Below are positions 5,855-59,268 of a stretch of DNA of 64,000 bases, one piece after another. This DNA comes from Denitrovibrio acetiphilus DSM 12809 (GTDB lineage: Bacteria > Chrysiogenota > Deferribacteres > Deferribacterales > Geovibrionaceae), in NCBI RefSeq assembly GCF_000025725.1, contig NC_013943.1, positions 1,550,001 to 1,614,000 of the forward strand. Direction: 5' to 3'. The stretch's first letter is position 1. Each line of letters opens with the position of its first letter. Both the position numbers and the translations under genes were made by a program. The notes beneath the pieces are model-generated. The model searched no databases. It was not told the origin of the DNA and was given only the letters and a program-made list of their open reading frames with translations.

Positions 5855-6000
5855 CTAATAACAAACTTTTACGCTTGTGTTTCGGGGTTTATCTAATTTT
5901 AACAATTAATGAGTAATAAGCAAATTAAACTGATAAAAAATAAATAATGTCTGGAAAGACACTCCGTGAGCTTCCATTGTTTAACCTGGCATACTCATAG

Positions 6001-7950
6001 TTATTTGTTATATTTAAATTGAGAAACAGCCTTGTTTATTTCACTGTTGGAGTCATTGAGTTCAGAGATACTTTTGATAGTCTCATTTGCTATAGACTCA
6101 TTTTCTTTGGCGATGGAGTCAATCTCTACAACACTTTGGTTAAGTAAGTCCATAGCTGTCGCTTCCTCTTCTGTTGCAATAGCAATTTTATTCACTTCAA
6201 CAGTGACAGCTTTCACACTTTCTAAAATCTCTTCAAGTGCTTGTTTTGTATGCTCAGCCATTGTCATTCCTTCGTTAGCTTTTTCAGCATTAGCAGTCAT
6301 GTTAACAACGGCTGTCTGAGTTTCATTTTGTATTGTACTAATCATATTAACGATATCTTTAGTCGCTTCGGTGGTCTTCTCAGCAAGTTTTCTGACTTCA
6401 TCTGCAACAACGGCAAAACCTCTACCATGGTCACCAGCCCTTGCAGCTTCAATAGCAGCATTAAGAGCAAGAAGGTTCGTTTGGTCTGCAATATCATTGA
6501 TTACTTGTATTATCTGTCCAATTTCTTGGCTTAACTGCCCTAGGTTGTTAACAATTAAACTGTTTTGCTGAACATTCTGAGCTATTGTTTCCATTAATTT
6601 CATAGAATTAACTGACATAGTATGACCATCTACAACCAGCTTATCAGCTCTATTTGCTGCGTCTGCAACTATGGAAGCATTGTTTGCCACTTCCTGGACA
6701 GTTACATTTAGCTCTTCAATAGCACTTGCTGATGATGAGGCTGCGGCGGATTGTTGTGCTACGCCAGCACTAACCCTTTCAGAAAGTCCGGTAAGCTCAT
6801 TTGATACATTCGATAAACGGCTGAGCTTTTCGTTTATAACATATAAAGAGGAACTGACATCTTTAGCCATAGCACCTACCGAGTATGCAAGCTCTCCTAT
6901 TTCATCATTATATTTTGGTTTGAGTTTAACAGTAAAGTCGCCCTTACTCATTATTTCCAACTTATCCTGAACATTTTTGATTCTATTGATAATAACTGAT
7001 TTAGTAAAAGAATAAGAAAATAGCATAGGTACTATTATAGTAACAATCAGTAATCCTAAAAGCATATATGGAAGTCTTAATTGACTCTGTATTGCATTAT
7101 AAATTTTTTGACTAGGGATACCTGATATGTGATAACCAATAAGTGCCCCTGAGTCTGTCTTGACAGGTATGCTGATAAAGTAATACATTTTACCCAGAAA
7201 CTTGCTGTTAGTGGTCAAATTTAACATATCTGCATCACCTAGAGCACTAACGACCTCATCACTAAACCATTTGTTATTCGCAAGTACAAATGACCCAACC
7301 TGTTTATTCTTAGCTAGCTTTGAATACTTCTCTGCAACTTGATTAGGGATCACCAGTGCATATATCAAATCTTTCTTTGCTAAATCCCTACTCACAGAGC
7401 CGACACCTTGCAAGAACTCGACTGAGCCAACATATAGTTCATTGTCAAAAACTGGAGAGATTGCTCTAATCATAAGGCCAACACTTCCAATCTCAAATTG
7501 AACTGTGGCCTTTTTATCTTTAATAACGTTATTTACAGACTCTCTTGAGCTAATCAAGTCTTCACCAAAACTGCCGGTATCCCAGTTCTTTATAAATGAT
7601 TTGCCATATCTGTCATGCAGGTGTATTTTGATGCCTTTGTAGTTCGTTTGCTTTGTATATTCTGCACTAACTCTTTCAAGTGCTTGAATAGCACCTTCTC
7701 TATCGTTGTTACTCAGTGCATTTATGACATCTGGCCTTGAGCTAAAACCTACTGCATTAGTAAGACCTATATCAAATTTTTTATCTAAAAGTTCTGATAT
7801 TTGTTGAGCCATTTTTCCTGATTCTTTTAAAAAGGCTTCTTCTGTTTTTGATTTCTTGACGAGTTGAAGGGCTATAATAGCTATAGCTACAAACAGAATT
7901 CCAAGTATTAAATTGAATAGTGATACTTTTTTGTTGATAGAAAGGCTCAT
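6001..7950 (-). CDS. Methyl-accepting chemotaxis protein with Cache-like sensor
   Basis: This 649-aa receptor has TM1 at about 11-32, a large periplasmic double-Cache-like sensor about 33-290, TM2 about 295-318, HAMP, and a signalling domain with [19 protein letters not shown] at the tip. The sensor block LHDRYGKSF…W, then [16 protein letters not shown] and [10 protein letters not shown], is shared with the orphan lipoprotein at 61330-62184. I use the ATG at 7950 because GAGG lies 6 bases upstream; an in-frame TTG at 7962 is less likely. Upstream lies IS copy B, so its original promoter, probably shared with the receptor and STAS genes at 9522-12065, may be separated from it. Confidence 0.9.
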
Positions 7951-49683: not shown

Positions 49684-49749
49684 ATTGTATACAATCGTAT
49701 TGACATTCATATAGCACCTGCGGTATTGTATACCTGTGGGGTATACAAT
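49684..49749 (+). promoter_or_regulatory. rrf2-cco promoter with two palindromic operators
   Basis: Operator 1 is ATTGTATACAAT (49684-49695), a perfect 12-bp palindrome upstream of the -35 TTGACA (49700-49705). Operator 2 is ATTGTATACC (49725-49734), TGTGG, GGTATACAAT (49740-49749). It covers the -10 region (TATTGT 49724-49729), the GTGGGG binding site and the ATG of the Rrf2 gene at 49748. Both use the half-site ATTGTATAC. Confidence 0.75.
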
Positions 49750-50173
49750 GGATTCTTTCATATTAAGAGAAGAAGATTACGCTATAAGGATAATCATCTA
49801 TCTTGCAACTGAGGGCAAAATGGTTAAAACAAAAGATATCTGCAAAAGCCTTTATCTTTCCCGCCCTATCGTTGTCAAAATTATCAATAAACTCAAATCC
49901 TGCGGGTTCCTCATCACTAAAACCGGCAAAGAAGGCGGGCTCACCATTGCTGAAAAGATATACGATGCCAGCCTTTACGACATCTTGCAGTGTATGGGGT
50001 TCAATTCCCGCATGAACCAGTGCACAACGCACAAGGCAACCTGCAAACTGATGCCTATATGCAGCGTTAACGTTCTTTTCTGCGAAATACAGCAGGACAT
50101 CGAAAACCGTCTTAAACAAGCAAAGATCAAAGAGTTTCTCTTTGAAAATAGAGACAGAAAACTGGTTAACTAA
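49748..50173 (+). CDS. Rrf2-family regulator with [Fe-S]-type cysteines
   Basis: This 141-aa winged-helix regulator has DNA-recognition KDICKSLYLSRPIVVKIINKL about 29-49. Three cysteines, C92, C99 and C105 (QCTTHKATCKLMPICS), lie at nearly the IscR/NsrR spacing and could hold an iron-sulfur cluster sensing O2, NO or iron. The start is the ATG at 49748; an earlier in-frame start at 49736 lies in operator 2. It is 20 bases before ccoN, so it likely controls the oxidase operon and itself. Confidence 0.9.
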   Translation: MDSFILREEDYAIRIIIYLATEGKMVKTKDICKSLYLSRPIVVKIINKLKSCGFLITKTGKEGGLTIAEKIYDASLYDILQCMGFNSRMNQCTTHKATCKLMPICSVNVLFCEIQQDIENRLKQAKIKEFLFENRDRKLVN

Positions 50174-51610: not shown

Positions 51611-52498
51611 ATGAGCAAGAATGAAAATTCTATCTATAACAAAGCCCTCCTGTTTTCAATAGTTGCGGCTATAACAGTTCTTATAGGTACGATCGCCACA
51701 GTGTTTGTCCCTATGTTTACAAGCGGAATGCACCCGAAAGTTGACGGACTTAAGCCATACACAGCTCTTCAGCTCGCCGGACGGGATATATATCAGGCAG
51801 AAGGATGCGTAAACTGTCACACACAGACTGTACGCCCTCTGAAAGCAGACGTGCTGAGATACGGTGCATACTCCAAAGCGGGTGAATTTGCTTACGACAG
51901 ACCTTTCCTTTGGGGTTCTAAAAGAACAGGTCCCGATCTCGCCAGAATCGGCGGTAAATACCCTGACGAATGGCACATACAGCATTTCGAAAGCCCACAG
52001 GCTTTTTACCCTAAATCAAACATGCCTCCTTATCCGTGGCTTAAAGAAAAACCTGTAAATGTTAAAGAAACTCTGGCACGCATGGATGCACTCAGCTTTC
52101 CTTACACAGATGAGGAAGCGGCAGAGCTTGCCGATTTAACACAGCTTGATGCGATAGTCGCATACATGCAGGTGATCGGTACAGCCATAGAGAAAGAAGC
52201 CGTTATCACTGTTGATTACGACTCTGTGCCTGAAACAAGTCCTTTAAGCGGAAACGCTGATGCCGTTGTTCTGGGTCAGAACCTTTACAAGGCTGAATGC
52301 GCAGGCTGTCACGGACAGAATGCAGAAGGAAATATCGGCGCATCTCTTGTGGATTACTCCATGGGTGAACTGCCGGACAACGACACCTATGTAACTATCG
52401 CCAACGGTTTTGAAGGCGCTATGCCTGGCTATGCAAGCAAGTTCAGCCAGGACAAAATATGGGCTATCGTTGAGTACATAAATAGTCTCAGAAACTAA
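51611..52498 (+). CDS. ccoO: cbb3 oxidase CcoO fused to a second cytochrome c domain
   Basis: This 295-aa protein has one N-terminal membrane anchor (about 12-36), a CcoO monoheme domain with CVNCH (66-70) and axial Met in SNMPPYPWL, and a linker. A second c-type domain has CAGCH (230-234) and axial Met in AMPGY (271). CcoO normally ends near residue 200; the extra domain looks like one of the CcoP heme domains. I use the ATG at 51611 after AGGAGG; the frame from 51575 starts inside ccoN. Total hemes c in the complex would be two, not three. Confidence 0.92.
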   Translation: MSKNENSIYNKALLFSIVAAITVLIGTIATVFVPMFTSGMHPKVDGLKPYTALQLAGRDIYQAEGCVNCHTQTVRPLKADVLRYGAYSKAGEFAYDRPFLWGSKRTGPDLARIGGKYPDEWHIQHFESPQAFYPKSNMPPYPWLKEKPVNVKETLARMDALSFPYTDEEAAELADLTQLDAIVAYMQVIGTAIEKEAVITVDYDSVPETSPLSGNADAVVLGQNLYKAECAGCHGQNAEGNIGASLVDYSMGELPDNDTYVTIANGFEGAMPGYASKFSQDKIWAIVEYINSLRN

Positions 52499-52512
52499 TA
52501 AGGAGGTACGTT

Positions 52513-52707
52513 ATGATTCAGGAAGAATTCGATAACCTGGAAGAGTTTAACAGGGAAGATACTGAAAATGTACTTCCGCTGGGCTGGCTTATTCTGTTCA
52601 TAGGGCTTATAGTATTTGGTATATACTATGTTTATGCCTATACACCTGCTTTCAGCGGGTGGTCACAGGAAAAACAGCTCGAAGAAGTAATGAAAGACGT
52701 TAAATAA
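52513..52707 (+). CDS. Stand-alone CcoP (FixP) N-terminal membrane anchor
   Basis: This 64-aa protein has one helix (about 23-44) within EDTENVLPLGWLILFIGLIV and a following tail FSGWSQEKQLEE. This is the FixP_N pattern that starts CcoP (…LP.WWL..F…, then GW.). The heme domains of CcoP are absent here; the only extra one is on CcoO. AAGGAGGT precedes the ATG and it is 14 bases after ccoO. I infer a split CcoP; otherwise it could be a CcoQ-like subunit. Confidence 0.75.
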   Translation: MIQEEFDNLEEFNREDTENVLPLGWLILFIGLIVFGIYYVYAYTPAFSGWSQEKQLEEVMKDVK

Positions 52708-52721
52708 CGTAAAACATCTCT

Positions 52722-52755
52722 GGGGCGGATTTTATAGCCGCCCCTTATTTTCTTT
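52722..52755 (+). terminator. Attenuator hairpin inside the cco operon
   Basis: GGGGCGG (52722-52728) pairs with CCGCCCC (52738-52744), followed by a U-rich tract TTATTTTCTTT. It separates the structural genes (ccoN, ccoO and the CcoP anchor) from the assembly genes, so partial termination would make more oxidase subunits than assembly factors. Confidence 0.7.
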
Positions 52756-52771
52756 AAAACGGAGGACAACC

Positions 52772-52921
52772 ATGTTAGGGACCCCGCTATCGTATTTCAT
52801 CTACGGTCTGGTGCTTGTGCTGGTTTTTGCCGGAATCATCGCTTACAACTATTCCAAAAAGAATAAAAGCAAAATAGAGCAGGCAAAATACGACATGATG
52901 GATGATGATGATGAAGATTGA
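52772..52921 (+). CDS. CcoQ/FixQ-like small membrane protein, 49 aa
   Basis: It has one helix (about 8-27, LSYFIYGLVLVLVFAGII), a lysine-rich stretch, and an acidic end (MMDDDDED). GGAGGA lies 8 bases before the ATG. CcoQ proteins stabilise CcoP/CcoN. It overlaps ccoG by 11 bases through the repeated ATG/GAT run. Confidence 0.75.
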   Translation: MLGTPLSYFIYGLVLVLVFAGIIAYNYSKKNKSKIEQAKYDMMDDDDED

Positions 52922-54125
52922 GCTCCAGCAGAAAAGATGGGTTGTAAGGATTATATTCACAGCAATATACCTGCTCATCCCTTTTATCAAGATAAACGGA
53001 GATAGCATACTGAGGTTTGACATACCGTCCCTCGGTCTGCTGTTCTTCGGCAAAACTATTTATATTGAGAATTTTTTTATCGTTCTCATTTTTACTTTTT
53101 TTATAACGTTCCTTATAATTCTCATCACCCAGCTTTACGGGCGTATATGGTGCGGGTGGCTATGTCCCCAGACTGTAATGATGAATTTCACTAAATTTCT
53201 TGAAAATAAAAATCTAAGCTTTTTTACAAAGTTTTTATTCCATACAGCCGTACTTGCCATAAGCGCTCTGATCGGGGCATCGATGGTGTGGTATTTCGTA
53301 TCTCCTTACGCTTTTTTCAGCGGGCTGACTGACGGCACAATAAGCTCTGTGACAGTATGGTTTTTTATAGTGCTTACGATAATAACTTATTTGAACTTTG
53401 CGCTTATAAGGTACAAGTTTTGTACGACTATCTGCCCATACTCAAAACTTCAGTCTGTTATGTTTGATGACAACACCCTTATAATCGCTATGGATCCTGA
53501 AACCAGCTACAAATGTGTGAAGTGTCAGGCGTGCGTAAACACCTGCCCAGTAGGAATAGACATACGGCAGGGTATGGACAGCCAGTGTATCAACTGCGGG
53601 CGCTGCATAACCGCCTGCACAAAAACTATGACCAGAGAAAACGAAGACGTATCTTCCCTCATCAACTACATATACGGGTTCAACAACCGGAAAAAAACCT
53701 TTCGTACAAACGTTATAATTACCGGAGTGGTGACAGCACTATTCCTCTCAGGCTTTTTGTTTATGGCGGCAACTATGAAACCATACGAGTTTCAGGTTTT
53801 CCCCAACTCCGCTTTCCTACCCAGATACAAAGATGATCAGGTTATAAACTCATACGAGATAATGCTTAGAAACCTGACAAAGGATAATCTCAGGGTGGAA
53901 CTGAAACTCAAAGATTTTAAAAACTATGAACTCCAGTATCCACAGCCTCTTGTGGTTGCGCCGGACGAGACACTCAAAGAGAAGGTATTTCTCTTTATCC
54001 CCGCAGCAGAGCTGAAGAAGAAACCAATACTTTCCCTGACTATGCAGTCATTGGGAAATGATGAAAAAGGTAAACCTCTTGAGAGCGAACTAAGCTTCAG
54101 GAGACCAATCAGAAAGAAGAAATAG
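52911..54125 (+). CDS. ccoG: cbb3 oxidase accessory protein CcoG (FixG)
   Basis: This 404-aa membrane ferredoxin has TM helices at about 8-28, 47-68, 105-130 and 145-165, plus one at about 270-290. Motifs are YGRIWCGWLCPQTVMM, CTTICPYSKLQS and two [4Fe-4S] sites, CVKCQACVNTCPVGID and CINCGRCITACTK. It carries a C-terminal Ig-like periplasmic domain. It reduces copper for CuB insertion. Four ATGs in a row make the exact start uncertain; I use the last, at 52911. Confidence 0.93.
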   Translation: MKIELQQKRWVVRIIFTAIYLLIPFIKINGDSILRFDIPSLGLLFFGKTIYIENFFIVLIFTFFITFLIILITQLYGRIWCGWLCPQTVMMNFTKFLENKNLSFFTKFLFHTAVLAISALIGASMVWYFVSPYAFFSGLTDGTISSVTVWFFIVLTIITYLNFALIRYKFCTTICPYSKLQSVMFDDNTLIIAMDPETSYKCVKCQACVNTCPVGIDIRQGMDSQCINCGRCITACTKTMTRENEDVSSLINYIYGFNNRKKTFRTNVIITGVVTALFLSGFLFMAATMKPYEFQVFPNSAFLPRYKDDQVINSYEIMLRNLTKDNLRVELKLKDFKNYELQYPQPLVVAPDETLKEKVFLFIPAAELKKKPILSLTMQSLGNDEKGKPLESELSFRRPIRKKK

Positions 54126-54133
54126 GAGCTGTC

Positions 54134-54568
54134 ATGAGAGTAAGTATCATTATATTTCTGATAGGATTTATAACAATTGCACCGTCAATCTATGTCGGAA
54201 TAAAATATTTTGATGGTAAAGTGACAGATCAGCCTTATGAAACCGGGCTGAAATATGACTCTGATAAACAGTTTATAAAAGAAAACGGTCTGGATCTGTC
54301 TATAATCAGCCAGTCCCGGACAGATAACATTGTAAATCTTAACTTCACTGTTAAGAATGCAGGAGAAGTAGCTCTGGAAAATATCGAATTTTACCTCTCA
54401 CGTCCTGCCACAAATAAAGAAACATTGAAACTCGATGCCGAACCTTCTACAGACGGAAGCTATGCATCTGCTTTCAGCCTAGATCAACACGGGTATTACA
54501 TTCTGATGGCAAAGAGCAAAGTCAACGACAGAGTGATCCGCCTTCAGAAAAGTTTTTATATTAACTAA
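54134..54568 (+). CDS. FixH/CcoH-like membrane protein
   Basis: This 144-aa protein has an N-terminal helix (about 3-25) and a periplasmic beta-rich domain with YETGLKYDSDKQFIKENG, which is the YExGL.Y pattern of FixH. It helps assemble cbb3 oxidase in other bacteria. GGAGC precedes the ATG. Confidence 0.82.
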   Translation: MRVSIIIFLIGFITIAPSIYVGIKYFDGKVTDQPYETGLKYDSDKQFIKENGLDLSIISQSRTDNIVNLNFTVKNAGEVALENIEFYLSRPATNKETLKLDAEPSTDGSYASAFSLDQHGYYILMAKSKVNDRVIRLQKSFYIN

Positions 54569-54584
54569 GACCAGGAGGTTTACT

Positions 54585-54671
54585 ATGAGAGTTGGAACAA
54601 TAGTAATGATCATTTCCCTTATCGCAATGATAGGACTGCCTCTGTACTATGCGATGAAATACGCGAACTGA
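54585..54671 (+). CDS. 28-aa membrane microprotein in the cco operon
   Basis: The ORF encodes RVGTIVMIISLIAMIG and then a tail PLYYAMKYAN: a single helix. AGGAGG (54573-54578) stands 6 bases before the ATG and the stop overlaps the ccoS start (TGATG). Coupling and binding site argue that it is real. It could be an oxidase subunit like CcoM of Pseudomonas. I do not recognise its family. Confidence 0.65.
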   Translation: MRVGTIVMIISLIAMIGLPLYYAMKYAN

Positions 54672-54835
54672 TGGGAGCACTCTACATGATGATACCTGTC
54701 TCGCTCATACTGGGCGTGATAGTGCTTATCATCTTCCTCTGGGCATCAAAAGCAGGCGAATTTGATGACATCGAGGGACCAAAATACCGAATGCTGGACG
54801 ACGATGCCGAAGACATCCCGCATAAGGAAAAATAG
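54671..54835 (+). CDS. ccoS: cbb3 oxidase assembly protein CcoS (FixS)
   Basis: This 54-aa protein has a single helix and the CcoS pattern: MIPVSLILGVIVLIIFLWA, then SKAGEFDDIEGPKYRMLDDD (GQFdDle.pa.riL.dd in the family). It is needed to insert heme and copper. Its ATG overlaps the preceding microprotein stop. It lies 10 bases before the P-type ATPase gene. Confidence 0.88.
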   Translation: MGALYMMIPVSLILGVIVLIIFLWASKAGEFDDIEGPKYRMLDDDAEDIPHKEK

Positions 54836-54845
54836 GTAGTTCATC

Positions 54846-57281
54846 GTGAGCAATAACAAAACTGTTACTTGCAGCCACTGTATGCTGGAAATAAACAAAA
54901 ACCAGGCAATAGAGGAACGGGTGAACGGAGAAGAATGTTATTTTTGCTGCCCCGGCTGCTCCAGTGTTTACAGTATCCTTCAGGAGGAAGGCTTTTCAAA
55001 GTTTTACTCCAAAAGGGACGACAACTGGGAGCCGGGTGCTGTTGTACGGTCGAATGTCTCCGAAGAGCTGTTTGTTGATTCGGTTCTGGAAACAGAAAAT
55101 TCATACGAGGTAAACATTGCACTGTCCGGCATCCGCTGTGCAGCCTGCATCTGGCTTATCGAAACATATCTTTCTAAAGCACACGGTATCGAATCTGTTA
55201 TGGTTAACTATGCCACCCACAAAGCTAAAATACGCTGGACAAAAGGTATCATCACCCTCAAAGAGATAATAGACCGAATATCCTCCATAGGCTACTGCCC
55301 TCTTCCCATAAGCGAATCCGGCACAGCCACAATCTACGAAAAAGAGAAGAAGGATTATTTCTTTCGCTTTTCAATAGGCGCATTCTTCAGTATGCAGCTT
55401 ATGATATATACTATAGCTCTTTATGCCGGATACTTTCAGGGGATAGACGAAGGTCTGCGGATAATGTTTCAGTATGCTGCATGGCTCCTCAGCACACCGG
55501 TTATGTTTTACTCCGGAATGCCTTTCATCAAAAGTTCTATCGCAGCCATAAGGCACGGTCATACCACCATGGACACCCTTATTTTTATGGGGTCATTCAC
55601 GGCATACGTTTACAGTATATTTGCGCTCTTCATGGGTAAAGAGGTCTATTTCGACACAACTTCCATGATAATAACCCTTATACTGCTGGGGAGATACATT
55701 GAATCCGGAGCAAAGGCAAGGACTTCCAATGCGGTATCGAAACTTCTTACATATCAACCTGTTCAGGTTCGTTTTCTCAGCTCTTTTGATATTAACGACT
55801 ACATTACAGGCAGCCTCAGGTCTGAGACAGTTCCGGTAAAGCAGGTTCGTGCCGGAGACTACCTTGAAGTACTCCCCGGTGACTCCATTCCTGCTGACGG
55901 TATCGTAATTTACGGAAATTCCGAGGTTAACGAGTCAATGCTGACCGGCGAACCTCTGCCTCAGGTAAAAAATGAAGGTACAAAAGTTTTCGCCGGCACC
56001 GGCAACGTTAACGGTAAAATCATAATACAGGTTGAGCACACCGGAGCCACAACCACCCTCTCCCGCATCGTTCAGGCTGTGGAGGATGCGCAGGCTGCCA
56101 AGGCTCCCATTCAGAACATCGCAGACAAAGTTGTCGGATGGTTTGTTCCTGCAATCCTGACAGTTGGAGCATGTACGTTCATAGGCTGGTATTACTATTC
56201 AGGCGACATGCTTGTATCCACTATGAATGCCGTATCTGTATTAGTTATAGCCTGCCCTTGTGCCCTCGGTCTTGCTACGCCTCTGGCGATACTTATAGCA
56301 ACATCCAAGATAACTAAACTGGGCGCTGTGGCGAAAGCCGGGGATATTATTGAAATACTTAGCAAGGCAGACACAATTATATTTGATAAAACAGGTACAA
56401 TCACCAAAGGCGAGCTCAAAGTAGAAAATGTTGCTGTATATGACACAGACAAAAAAACACTTGTCAGCTATACAGCTTCCCTTGAAAAGCACTCCTCACA
56501 CCTGATAGGCAAAGCAATCATCAACACATATCTTGATGATTTCCTTGCAGTGGAGAACTTTAAAGAGCACCCGGGGAAAGGGCTGAGCGGCGTTATAAAA
56601 GGATCTGTCGTTCTTGCGGGTACATCGTCATACCTGAATGAAAACGGCGTTGAAACACCTGATAACGAGATCAGAGAGCAGATAAAGCTGGGCTACACTG
56701 TGGCATGTATAGCTATTGATGGTAAATTTGCCGGATTCATGACACTCTCGGACTCTATCAGAGATGATGCTCAGGATATGCTCAGGCAACTTGCCAAAAG
56801 ACATGTAAATATCGTTATACTCACAGGCGACAATGAACTTGCGGCAGCAAAGCTTGTGGAGAAGTTAGATGTTCCAAGCCTCACTTATATCGCAGACGTA
56901 ACACCCTTTGAAAAAGCCGATGTTGTAAAATCATTTCAGAAAAACGGTAAAGTGTGCGCCATGGTCGGGGACGGCATTAACGATGCACCTGCCCTCACCA
57001 CTGCGGACATAGGGATAGCTATCGGTCAGGGTACAGACATAGCCATTGAAAGCTCAGATATCGTTCTGATGCGGGATGAACTGAAACTTGTTTCTATTGT
57101 TTACGACACATCAGTTGTCACACTGCGGGTGATAAAACAAAATCTGTTCTGGGCATTTTCTTACAACATTATAATGGTTCCGCTTGCCGTAACAGGCACA
57201 ATACACCCGGTTTTCTCAGCAGGTTTGATGAGTATCAGTAGTCTGGCGGTAGTCTTCAACTCACTTCGCATCAGCAGATAG
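54846..57281 (+). CDS. ccoI: Copper-transporting P-type ATPase CcoI (FixI)
   Basis: This 811-aa ATPase delivers copper for the cbb3 CuB centre. It has an N-terminal Cys-rich metal site (CSHCMLEINKNQ … CYFCCPGCSSVY), an HMA domain with GIRCAACIWLIE, eight TM helices, the ion motif VIACPCALGLATP, phosphorylation site FDKTGTITKGE and GDGINDAPALTTADIG. The start is GTG at 54846. It converges with the EamA gene, overlapping by about 20 bases at the 3' ends. Confidence 0.94.
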   Translation: MSNNKTVTCSHCMLEINKNQAIEERVNGEECYFCCPGCSSVYSILQEEGFSKFYSKRDDNWEPGAVVRSNVSEELFVDSVLETENSYEVNIALSGIRCAACIWLIETYLSKAHGIESVMVNYATHKAKIRWTKGIITLKEIIDRISSIGYCPLPISESGTATIYEKEKKDYFFRFSIGAFFSMQLMIYTIALYAGYFQGIDEGLRIMFQYAAWLLSTPVMFYSGMPFIKSSIAAIRHGHTTMDTLIFMGSFTAYVYSIFALFMGKEVYFDTTSMIITLILLGRYIESGAKARTSNAVSKLLTYQPVQVRFLSSFDINDYITGSLRSETVPVKQVRAGDYLEVLPGDSIPADGIVIYGNSEVNESMLTGEPLPQVKNEGTKVFAGTGNVNGKIIIQVEHTGATTTLSRIVQAVEDAQAAKAPIQNIADKVVGWFVPAILTVGACTFIGWYYYSGDMLVSTMNAVSVLVIACPCALGLATPLAILIATSKITKLGAVAKAGDIIEILSKADTIIFDKTGTITKGELKVENVAVYDTDKKTLVSYTASLEKHSSHLIGKAIINTYLDDFLAVENFKEHPGKGLSGVIKGSVVLAGTSSYLNENGVETPDNEIREQIKLGYTVACIAIDGKFAGFMTLSDSIRDDAQDMLRQLAKRHVNIVILTGDNELAAAKLVEKLDVPSLTYIADVTPFEKADVVKSFQKNGKVCAMVGDGINDAPALTTADIGIAIGQGTDIAIESSDIVLMRDELKLVSIVYDTSVVTLRVIKQNLFWAFSYNIIMVPLAVTGTIHPVFSAGLMSISSLAVVFNSLRISR

Positions 57282-58137: not shown

Positions 58138-58797
58138 TTACATCCTTACCCCAGAATATATAAAGAAGATACCCATACAAACCATCAGTATGAGGCTTAG
58201 CAGGTTAAAAAGACCCCGTCTGGACATGAAATAATTACCAAAAACAGAAGTAGCCATCATAGCCGCAGATGTCCCGATACCATACAGAAACATAGACAAT
58301 AGTCCGCGGGATGCGCTTGCGGTGGACGCTGACGCAATAATCATACCGTAAAGAGGACCGCAGGGGAGAAAACCAAGCACAAGCCCTGTAACAAAAGCAG
58401 ACCTGGGCTGAAACTTCTTCAGCTTGCTGAAAAATGCACCGCCTGCGAGCTTGTGTTCCAGCTTATTCATGAAATTGTAGCCAATAAAAGACAAAACCCC
58501 GTAGAGCACAAGAAAAACACCTGCAACAATTGCTGCTCCTTTCTGTATACCAATCAGTCTGCCGACAACCTGCATCATGTCTCCTGCAAAGCCGGCTATA
58601 AAACCGAGAAAACTATAGGTAACAACACGTCCGAGATTATACTTTATATGAGGTATGAATAGAGCACTGTAACCTTTCTTCTCTCCCACAAAACGACCGG
58701 ATATGTATAATACAAAAGGATGACACATTCCTATGCAGTGTCCGAACCCTACAGAAAATCCCATAGTCAGAAAGCCTAAATAGGTTAGCTCTTCCAT
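58138..58797 (-). CDS. SafE/TauE-like membrane protein linked to cbb3 oxidase
   Basis: This 219-aa protein has six helices in two halves, each with a GFGHC.GMC / GFLPCGPLY motif, as in the sulfite exporter TauE/SafE (COG2836) and DsbD-like groups. Genes of this type are frequently near ccoGHIS and act in copper or redox supply. The gene abuts the YtkA-like gene upstream and EamA downstream without gaps. Confidence 0.85.
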   Translation of the reverse strand: MEELTYLGFLTMGFSVGFGHCIGMCHPFVLYISGRFVGEKKGYSALFIPHIKYNLGRVVTYSFLGFIAGFAGDMMQVVGRLIGIQKGAAIVAGVFLVLYGVLSFIGYNFMNKLEHKLAGGAFFSKLKKFQPRSAFVTGLVLGFLPCGPLYGMIIASASTASASRGLLSMFLYGIGTSAAMMATSVFGNYFMSRRGLFNLLSLILMVCMGIFFIYSGVRM

Positions 58798-59268
58798 TTA
58801 TTTTTCGTCCATATCAAACAAAAATACTTTTTCAGCAGAAAAATTTCCCTCTTCAAACTCAAGTTTAGCAAACCACCTCTGTCCGCCAAAGATGCATTTG
58901 GGAAGTGTAATCTTTGCCGTATAGCCTGTAGCAGCCTTTTGCAGGCGCGCTTTATAAAGTCCCATATCCATAACCATATTGAACTTTACATCACCGCTCT
59001 TTAATTCAACGGGTCTGCCGTCACGTTCTATATGAAAACGAAAAACAATCTCCCGAAAAGGAAGTGCCGGACGGCTCATGTCCGCCTTAATCTTATACCT
59101 GCCAACAGTAACTTCTGTTTGTGAGTGAGAAAGGTCTATATTTTTCTGATATTTACGTACGAATTTTTCTGCTGCAAAAGACTGCTGGCTAAAGCAAACT
59201 ATCAACAGCAAAAGGAAAAATATACTGAATAAGGTTTTAATTATAATCTTATGTTTCATACTGTTCAC
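58798..59268 (-). CDS. Secreted YtkA/FixH-like protein
   Basis: This 156-aa protein has a signal peptide (about 1-33, KTLFSIFFLLLLIVCFSQQSFA, cut before AEK). A beta-sandwich-like region follows with MVMDMGLYKARLQKAATGYTAKITLPKCIFGGQRWF, resembling the YtkA-like and FixH folds used for periplasmic copper proteins. Start could be 59268 or the second ATG at 59259; no clear binding site is seen. It precedes the SafE-like gene with no gap, so a shared role in copper handling is likely. Confidence 0.7.
   Translation of the reverse strand: MNSMKHKIIIKTLFSIFFLLLLIVCFSQQSFAAEKFVRKYQKNIDLSHSQTEVTVGRYKIKADMSRPALPFREIVFRFHIERDGRPVELKSGDVKFNMVMDMGLYKARLQKAATGYTAKITLPKCIFGGQRWFAKLEFEEGNFSAEKVFLFDMDEK

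Follow-up and report, generated by a model that had tools for sequence, protein, structure and literature searches.

A cbb3-type oxidase of Denitrovibrio acetiphilus with a predicted CcoP-type heme domain on CcoO and a separate heme-less CcoP anchor

Results

Gene content of the cco operon

The window analyzed here is a stretch of 64,000 nucleotides from Denitrovibrio acetiphilus DSM 12809, whose genome is a single contig of 3,222,077 bp. It contains a cco operon with the gene order ccoN, ccoO, a short anchor gene, ccoQ, ccoG, ccoH, ccoS, and ccoI, preceded by a gene for an Rrf2-family regulator (Table 1). The closest named loci belong to Denitrovibrio metagenome-assembled genomes, with protein identities of 81-82%, and an Rrf2-like open reading frame was likewise seen by eye upstream of the operon at another locus, L163. 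The CcoGHIS maturation genes are all present (52902-57281). CcoN scored below the TIGR00780 cut-off (513.8 bits for a cut-off of 583); alignment showed that H56, H203, Y247, H253, H254, H341, and H343 are common to it and to canonical, proteobacterial CcoN. They comprise the heme and CuB histidines and the helix-VII tyrosine (Y247). Judged by its sequence, the enzyme belongs to the cbb3-type (C-family) oxidases, its catalytic subunit is an ordinary one, and high-affinity O2 reduction is predicted.

Table 1. Features of the cco operon region, in window coordinates
Feature	Position	Strand	Evidence
Rrf2-family regulator, upstream of the operon	49736..50173	+	Pfam Rrf2 4e-21
ccoN, catalytic subunit, 467 aa	50194..51597	+	Pfam COX1 6e-101; TIGR00780 ccoN 513.8 bits
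ccoO, 295 aa, with a second heme c domain fused to its end	51611..52498	+	NF011054/PRK14486; FixO + Cytochrome_CBB3
CcoO heme c site 1, CVNCH, residues 66-70, FixO core	51806..51820	+	invariant in alignment
CcoO site 1 Met ligand M138	52022-52024	+	invariant in alignment
Added CcoP-type heme domain, residues ~196-295	52196..52495	+	starts at end point of canonical CcoO
Added-domain heme site CAGCH, residues 230-234	52298-52312	+	C230, C233, H234 invariant
Added-domain Met ligand M271	52421-52423	+	invariant in alignment
FixP_N anchor of 64 aa without heme (stripped CcoP), single TM helix	52513..52707	+	FixP_N above cut-off
GC-rich hairpin, then T-rich run, between anchor gene and ccoQ	52722..52744	+	strand folding, -16.9 kcal/mol, z -1.9
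ccoQ (FixQ), 49 aa	52772..52921	+	Pfam FixQ 8.6e-8, 32.4 bits vs cut-off 29
ccoG, maturation protein	52902..54125	+	Pfam Fer4_18, FixG_C; TIGR02745 241 bits
ccoH (FixH)	54134..54568	+	Pfam FixH 1.4e-10
ccoS	54671..54835	+	Pfam FixS 8.6e-20; TIGR00847 above cut-off
ccoI, copper-transporting P-type ATPase	54846..57281	+	Pfam E1-E2_ATPase, ATPase-cat_bd, HMA

The hairpin between the anchor gene and ccoQ was absent from the output of a terminator scan and its window z-score is modest. Hairpins of different sequence occupy the same position at five loci of relatives (L038, L039, L040, L042, and L043). Its placement fits ccoN, ccoO, and the anchor gene being a structural unit, and it is possibly an attenuator that splits these genes from the accessory ones, setting the expression of subunits apart from that of assembly genes. 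Beyond the operon, the opposite strand (58138-59268) encodes a membrane protein of the DsbD_2/TauE-like kind together with a protein of 156 aa that has no Pfam match and is perhaps a second CcoH-like protein. Similar pairs sit inside the cco operons of loci L164 and L165, and a comparable pair has been described from green sulfur bacteria (PMC10158934).

A second heme c domain on CcoO

The original prediction was that CcoO carries two CxxCH sites and is followed by a gene for a mere FixP_N-like anchor. Both sites lie exactly where they had been placed, and the next gene indeed encodes only a 64-aa protein, which has neither Cys nor His and scored 30.6 bits against FixP_N (PF14715; cut-off 24.9, E 2.7e-7). 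Within CcoO, Pfam recognized FixO at residues 8-173 (PF02433, 2.9e-68) and Cytochrome_CBB3 at residues 222-290 (8.8e-17). The protein is above the TIGR00781 cut-off and matched NF011054 (PRK14486) over model positions 2-291 of 294 (482.1 bits, cut-off 447). The two CxxCH sites and the two Met ligands were invariant among 23 aligned proteins. When CcoO was compared with solved structures by profile search, residues 2-195 aligned to the CcoO of P. stutzeri (203 aa) and residues 208-292 to the first heme domain of CcoP, the nearest solved relatives of the added domain being CcoP chains. In a heme-domain tree (136 domains, about 92 columns, with many open forks), the C-terminal domains of CcoO, the domains of monoheme CcoP, and heme domain 1 of diheme CcoP came together (94/96), while CcoP heme 2 and the other cytochromes of D. 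acetiphilus fell outside this group. An added domain unrelated to CcoP would have spoken against the prediction; it groups instead with the CcoP heme domains, and by these comparisons it is of the CcoP type and homologous to them.

Which of the two CcoP heme domains it resembles more was less sharply marked by scores. Against TIGR00782 the added domain aligned to the second CcoP heme region (46.7 bits), single-sequence scores against the PDB were split between both domains, and the mean profile scores of the two CcoP heme domains are barely apart (37.7 and 34.8 bits). An origin from CcoP heme 2, suggested by the TIGR00782 positions, was dropped as it goes against both the tree and the structure profile search, where heme domain 1 was best. 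An AlphaFold model of CcoO matched CcoO in the PDB at a TM of 0.4 only (Foldseek) and was judged too weak to give the relative placement of the two hemes or a heme-heme distance, CcoO residues 71-114 having a pLDDT < 50.

Recurrence of the arrangement and history of the domain

The same pair of proteins, which the original prediction proposed to look for elsewhere, was found in dozens of genomes. Full-length fused CcoO is encoded by 36 of 51 Deferribacterota genomes. Among Nitrospirota, 246 genomes were sampled and 26 of them encode it; in a sample of 395 genomes from the phylum to which a Desulfobulbales genome belongs, 19 do. Exactly one FixP_N was found in 37 of the 51 Deferribacterota genomes, and the frame that holds it is 62-92 aa long, G003 being the sole exception. 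A gene-order survey, whose counts are not independent since some genomes are represented twice, gave 64 loci with two-heme CcoO followed by a heme-less anchor, nine with two-heme CcoO, CcoQ, and then the heme-less anchor, 27 with two-heme CcoO, CcoQ, and monoheme CcoP, 15 with one-heme CcoO and monoheme CcoP, and 16 with one-heme CcoO and diheme CcoP. Two-heme CcoO with a bare anchor occurs in the order O-anchor-Q (type A) in Deferribacterota and Nitrospirota, and in the order O-Q-anchor in Desulfobulbales and Desulfuromonadales (Thermodesulfobacteriota). Two-heme CcoO with monoheme CcoP was found in Geobacter and relatives, one Deferribacterota genome, and some Nitrospirota; one-heme CcoO with monoheme CcoP in Chlorobi, Leptospiraceae, and some Nitrospirota; and one-heme CcoO with diheme CcoP in Pseudomonadota. 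The operon of G003 (L022, Deferribacterota) is of the Desulfuromonadales type with 2+1 hemes and was probably acquired by horizontal transfer. A divergent set of Desulfobacterota CcoN/CcoO-like genes (L162 and about 20 weaker matches of 130-160 bits), again with two heme sites in CcoO, may represent a separate oxidase or a NO-reductase-like family; this distant CcoO-like group was excluded from the conclusions.

Two loci from assemblies that are probably metagenome-derived depart from type A. At L150, CcoO has one heme site, and it is the anchor protein, of 175 aa and above cut-off for both FixP_N and Cytochrome_CBB3, that bears the second domain; the order is O-P-Q as in type A. At L129, a one-heme CcoO is followed across a clean junction by a bare anchor; the operon has no second heme domain, and elsewhere in that genome there is only a remote cytochrome match of 19.5 bits. 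In a tree of CcoN plus the CcoO core, type A formed one clade (100/100) that included L150 and L129, with L150 sister to the fused L108 (100/100), and a clade of the fused type without L150 and L129 was rejected (AU p 6e-5). In the heme-domain tree, the L150 domain lay among Nitrospirota CcoO domains (98/88 and 96/81), and on the heme domain alone a grouping of the A-type domains without it was not rejected (p 0.26). These sequences are most simply read as a jump of the domain from CcoO to the anchor in the case of L150, and as its loss in the case of L129. Since a domain on the anchor and an absent domain both occur inside one well-supported oxidase clade, re-sorting is real, and the traffic between CcoO and CcoP that had been predicted is visible in these relatives. 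From such comparisons, the heme domain behaves as a movable module that sits on either protein, or is lost, among relatives.

Coordinates were recorded for these two forms at loci L164 and L163. At L164 (G597 contig 37), CcoP (5869-6396, -) is an anchor fused to the heme domain that is found on CcoO in sister genomes. At L163 (G293 contig 63), a monoheme CcoO (6319-6948, -) and a heme-less anchor lie in an operon without any other heme c, and the CcoP search of the remainder of that genome returned only a cytochrome match of 19.5 bits; L163 is a candidate for a single-heme-c cbb3 oxidase.

As to how the fused state arose, a clade of the A-type CcoO domains with the CcoO domains of their nearest three-heme relatives was not rejected (p 0.28), whereas a clade with the CcoP domains of these relatives was (p 0.009); the groups were picked after the trees were seen, so the p-values serve as guides. 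Moreover, according to the CcoN plus CcoO-core tree and the gene-order survey, the nearest outgroups mostly have the domain on both proteins. The original prediction had the CcoP-type domain moved onto CcoO. Its CcoP-type nature stands, but a direct move, in which a monoheme CcoP gave up its heme domain to the C-terminal end of CcoO in a single step and kept only the anchor, is unlikely in view of the two p-values and of these outgroups. That a one-step exchange within an operon does occur is indicated by L150, where the anchor-borne domain goes with the type A order, yet L150 is nested in the fused clade and looks like a later reverse move. Because the CcoO domains rather than the CcoP domains of the neighbors remain acceptable partners, duplication followed by loss is preferred: the sequences make it more likely that the domain was duplicated onto CcoO and that the heme was then lost from CcoP.

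A free FixP_N anchor in place of CcoP

The statement that no diheme CcoP follows proved right, as the anchor gene is succeeded by ccoQ, ccoG, ccoH, ccoS, and ccoI, none of which is a CcoP. The whole D. acetiphilus genome contained a single FixP_N match, the anchor itself, which is retained separately as a gene of its own, and no protein above the cut-off of the CcoP model TIGR00782 (179.95 bits), the top score being that of the CcoO C-terminus; the anchor reached 22.3 bits. A protein combining FixP_N with two heme c domains is absent from the genome. The same FixP_N and TIGR00782 searches disposed of a frameshifted or unlinked CcoP, so that the full CcoP gene elsewhere that could have overturned the prediction was not found. 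With 64 bp separating the stop codon of the anchor gene from ccoQ, and with the pair repeated in dozens of genomes, the bare anchor is not the product of chance or of a frameshift.

An unlinked soluble or membrane cytochrome could still serve as CcoP and keep the number of c hemes at three. The genome does encode a diheme protein that is c4-like (L101:5559-6161) and, adjoining a caa3 operon, a cytochrome c of 105 aa (L099:8528-8845), but none of the candidates has FixP_N and the other cytochromes of the genome scored at most 26.8 bits with the CcoP profile, which makes this reading quite unlikely. The enzyme is predicted to hold two c hemes, and CcoO would carry both.

The 64-aa protein aligned to the CcoP N-terminus. 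Its single-sequence matches included the CcoP N-termini of PDB chains 8smr_G and 3mk7_C (E 0.007-0.009), and at L150 the heme-bearing CcoP begins with a closely similar sequence. Its first PDB match, Crov588, was rejected; this was a repeat match of at most 22 residues to a viral protein, with many weak copies summed. Short hydrophobic proteins give weak profile matches and a true FixQ is present separately after the anchor, so one might suspect an unrelated small transmembrane subunit, similar to CcoQ or CcoM, whose likeness to FixP_N is a matter of composition. A score above the curated Pfam cut-off, the two PDB chains, and the similar CcoP N-terminus at L150 make this very improbable. We conclude from these matches that the protein is a true FixP_N unit, a CcoP cut down to its N-terminal transmembrane anchor and predicted to be a separate subunit.

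Between Denitrovibrio and its Seleniivibrio-like relatives, pN/pS was lowest for the anchor gene (0.03-0.18), with 0.11-0.25 for the CcoO core and 0.21-0.45 for the added domain. By this measure, purifying selection on the anchor is strong. The published description of D. acetiphilus is that of an obligate anaerobe whose growth oxygen inhibits (PMC3035293), which would suit a decaying relic, but this is hardly tenable for an operon in which all genes are open, ligands and catalytic residues are intact, the maturation set is complete, and both the anchor and CcoO are under strong purifying selection. This oxygen-inhibited anaerobe encodes two heme-copper oxidases; the second is of the caa3 type with a diheme subunit II, which has two tandem heme c domains (L099 3876-5108, -).

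Discussion

Altogether, these results point with good probability to a cbb3 oxidase whose electron-entry module has been re-partitioned, with a CcoP-type heme domain on CcoO and CcoP reduced to a bare anchor. In cbb3 oxidases, electrons pass from the CcoP hemes to the CcoO heme, then to heme b and to the b3/CuB site. Based on this route and on the anatomy observed here, CcoO residues 1-195 would keep their transmembrane anchor and their own heme c, and the chain would continue into the second heme c domain. A periplasmic cytochrome c, maybe the 105-aa cytochrome or the c4-like protein, would reduce the heme of the added domain, from which electrons would flow to the CcoO core heme, to heme b, and to the heme b3/CuB site. 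Like the CcoP helix, the free anchor would pack on CcoN, and perhaps on CcoQ and CcoH, with a role in assembly or stability. According to literature cited in PMC13186404 and PMC10158934, CcoQ and CcoH contact CcoP, and this would account for the retention of a helix that has lost its hemes. In the presumed ancestor, CcoO and CcoP would each have carried the domain, for three c hemes in all, the number predicted for Geobacter and relatives, before the CcoP copy was lost.

We would tentatively extend this to cbb3 oxidases at large, as a conceivable though doubtful generalization: the second heme c domain may be a dispensable module that is exchangeable between CcoO and the CcoP anchor, the anchor being essential independently of heme, and working enzymes with a single heme c (L129 type) may exist. 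CcoP is usually regarded as a single subunit that is both anchor and heme carrier. Here, nature has split anchoring from heme carriage, which renders the role of the anchor and that of the second heme separable. Moreover, a natural series of cbb3 oxidases with three, two, and perhaps one predicted c heme bears on how many hemes electron entry needs. A 64-aa anchor gene is also easily missed in the annotation of anaerobe and microaerophile genomes, and such genomes called ccoP-less, or said to have a partial cbb3, may hold a complete enzyme.

Two elements were already known: NCBIfam has an entry for the fused subunit, and a half-length CcoP with a single heme has been published for green sulfur bacteria (PMC10158934). 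In the literature searched, to which Ducluzeau 2008 did not belong, we found neither the bare anchor nor the series of heme counts, and no account of a relocated domain or of the apparent one-heme form; an earlier description may exist, with Ducluzeau 2008 the likeliest place for the fusion. The CcoO of D. acetiphilus fits NF011054 (PRK14486) over its full length; this entry, a putative bifunctional cbb3-type cytochrome c oxidase subunit II/cytochrome c, describes the fused subunit only, is silent on the bare anchor, and also takes in oxidases with a heme-bearing CcoP (Geobacter L053, 464 bits).

Compared with the canonical cbb3 oxidase of P. stutzeri (3MK7: CcoN, CcoO, and diheme CcoP), the D. 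acetiphilus enzyme has the same CcoN ligands, CcoO core (residues 2-195), FixP_N anchor, and accessory genes, but there is no diheme CcoP; a single CcoP-type domain lies on CcoO and the anchor is a separate protein. Like the green sulfur bacterial enzyme (PMC10158934), it has one CcoP-type heme domain and two predicted c hemes in total, although in those bacteria the domain is still on FixP_N and CcoO is monoheme. With Geobacter and other Desulfuromonadales (L053 and others) it shares a CcoO with a second heme domain, whereas their CcoP retains one heme domain, for a predicted total of three c hemes divided 2+1. Finally, a 2026 study of Deferribacter, from the same order of bacteria, found ccoN and ccoO, reported ccoP as 'not evidenced' and CcoO as mono-haem, and regarded the oxidase as partially encoded (PMC13186404). 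The arrangement there is probably the same. To judge by our Deferribacterota loci, that study may have missed both the domain fused to CcoO and the short anchor gene, and the bare-anchor arrangement would explain both the 'missing' ccoP and the mono-haem CcoO of Deferribacter.
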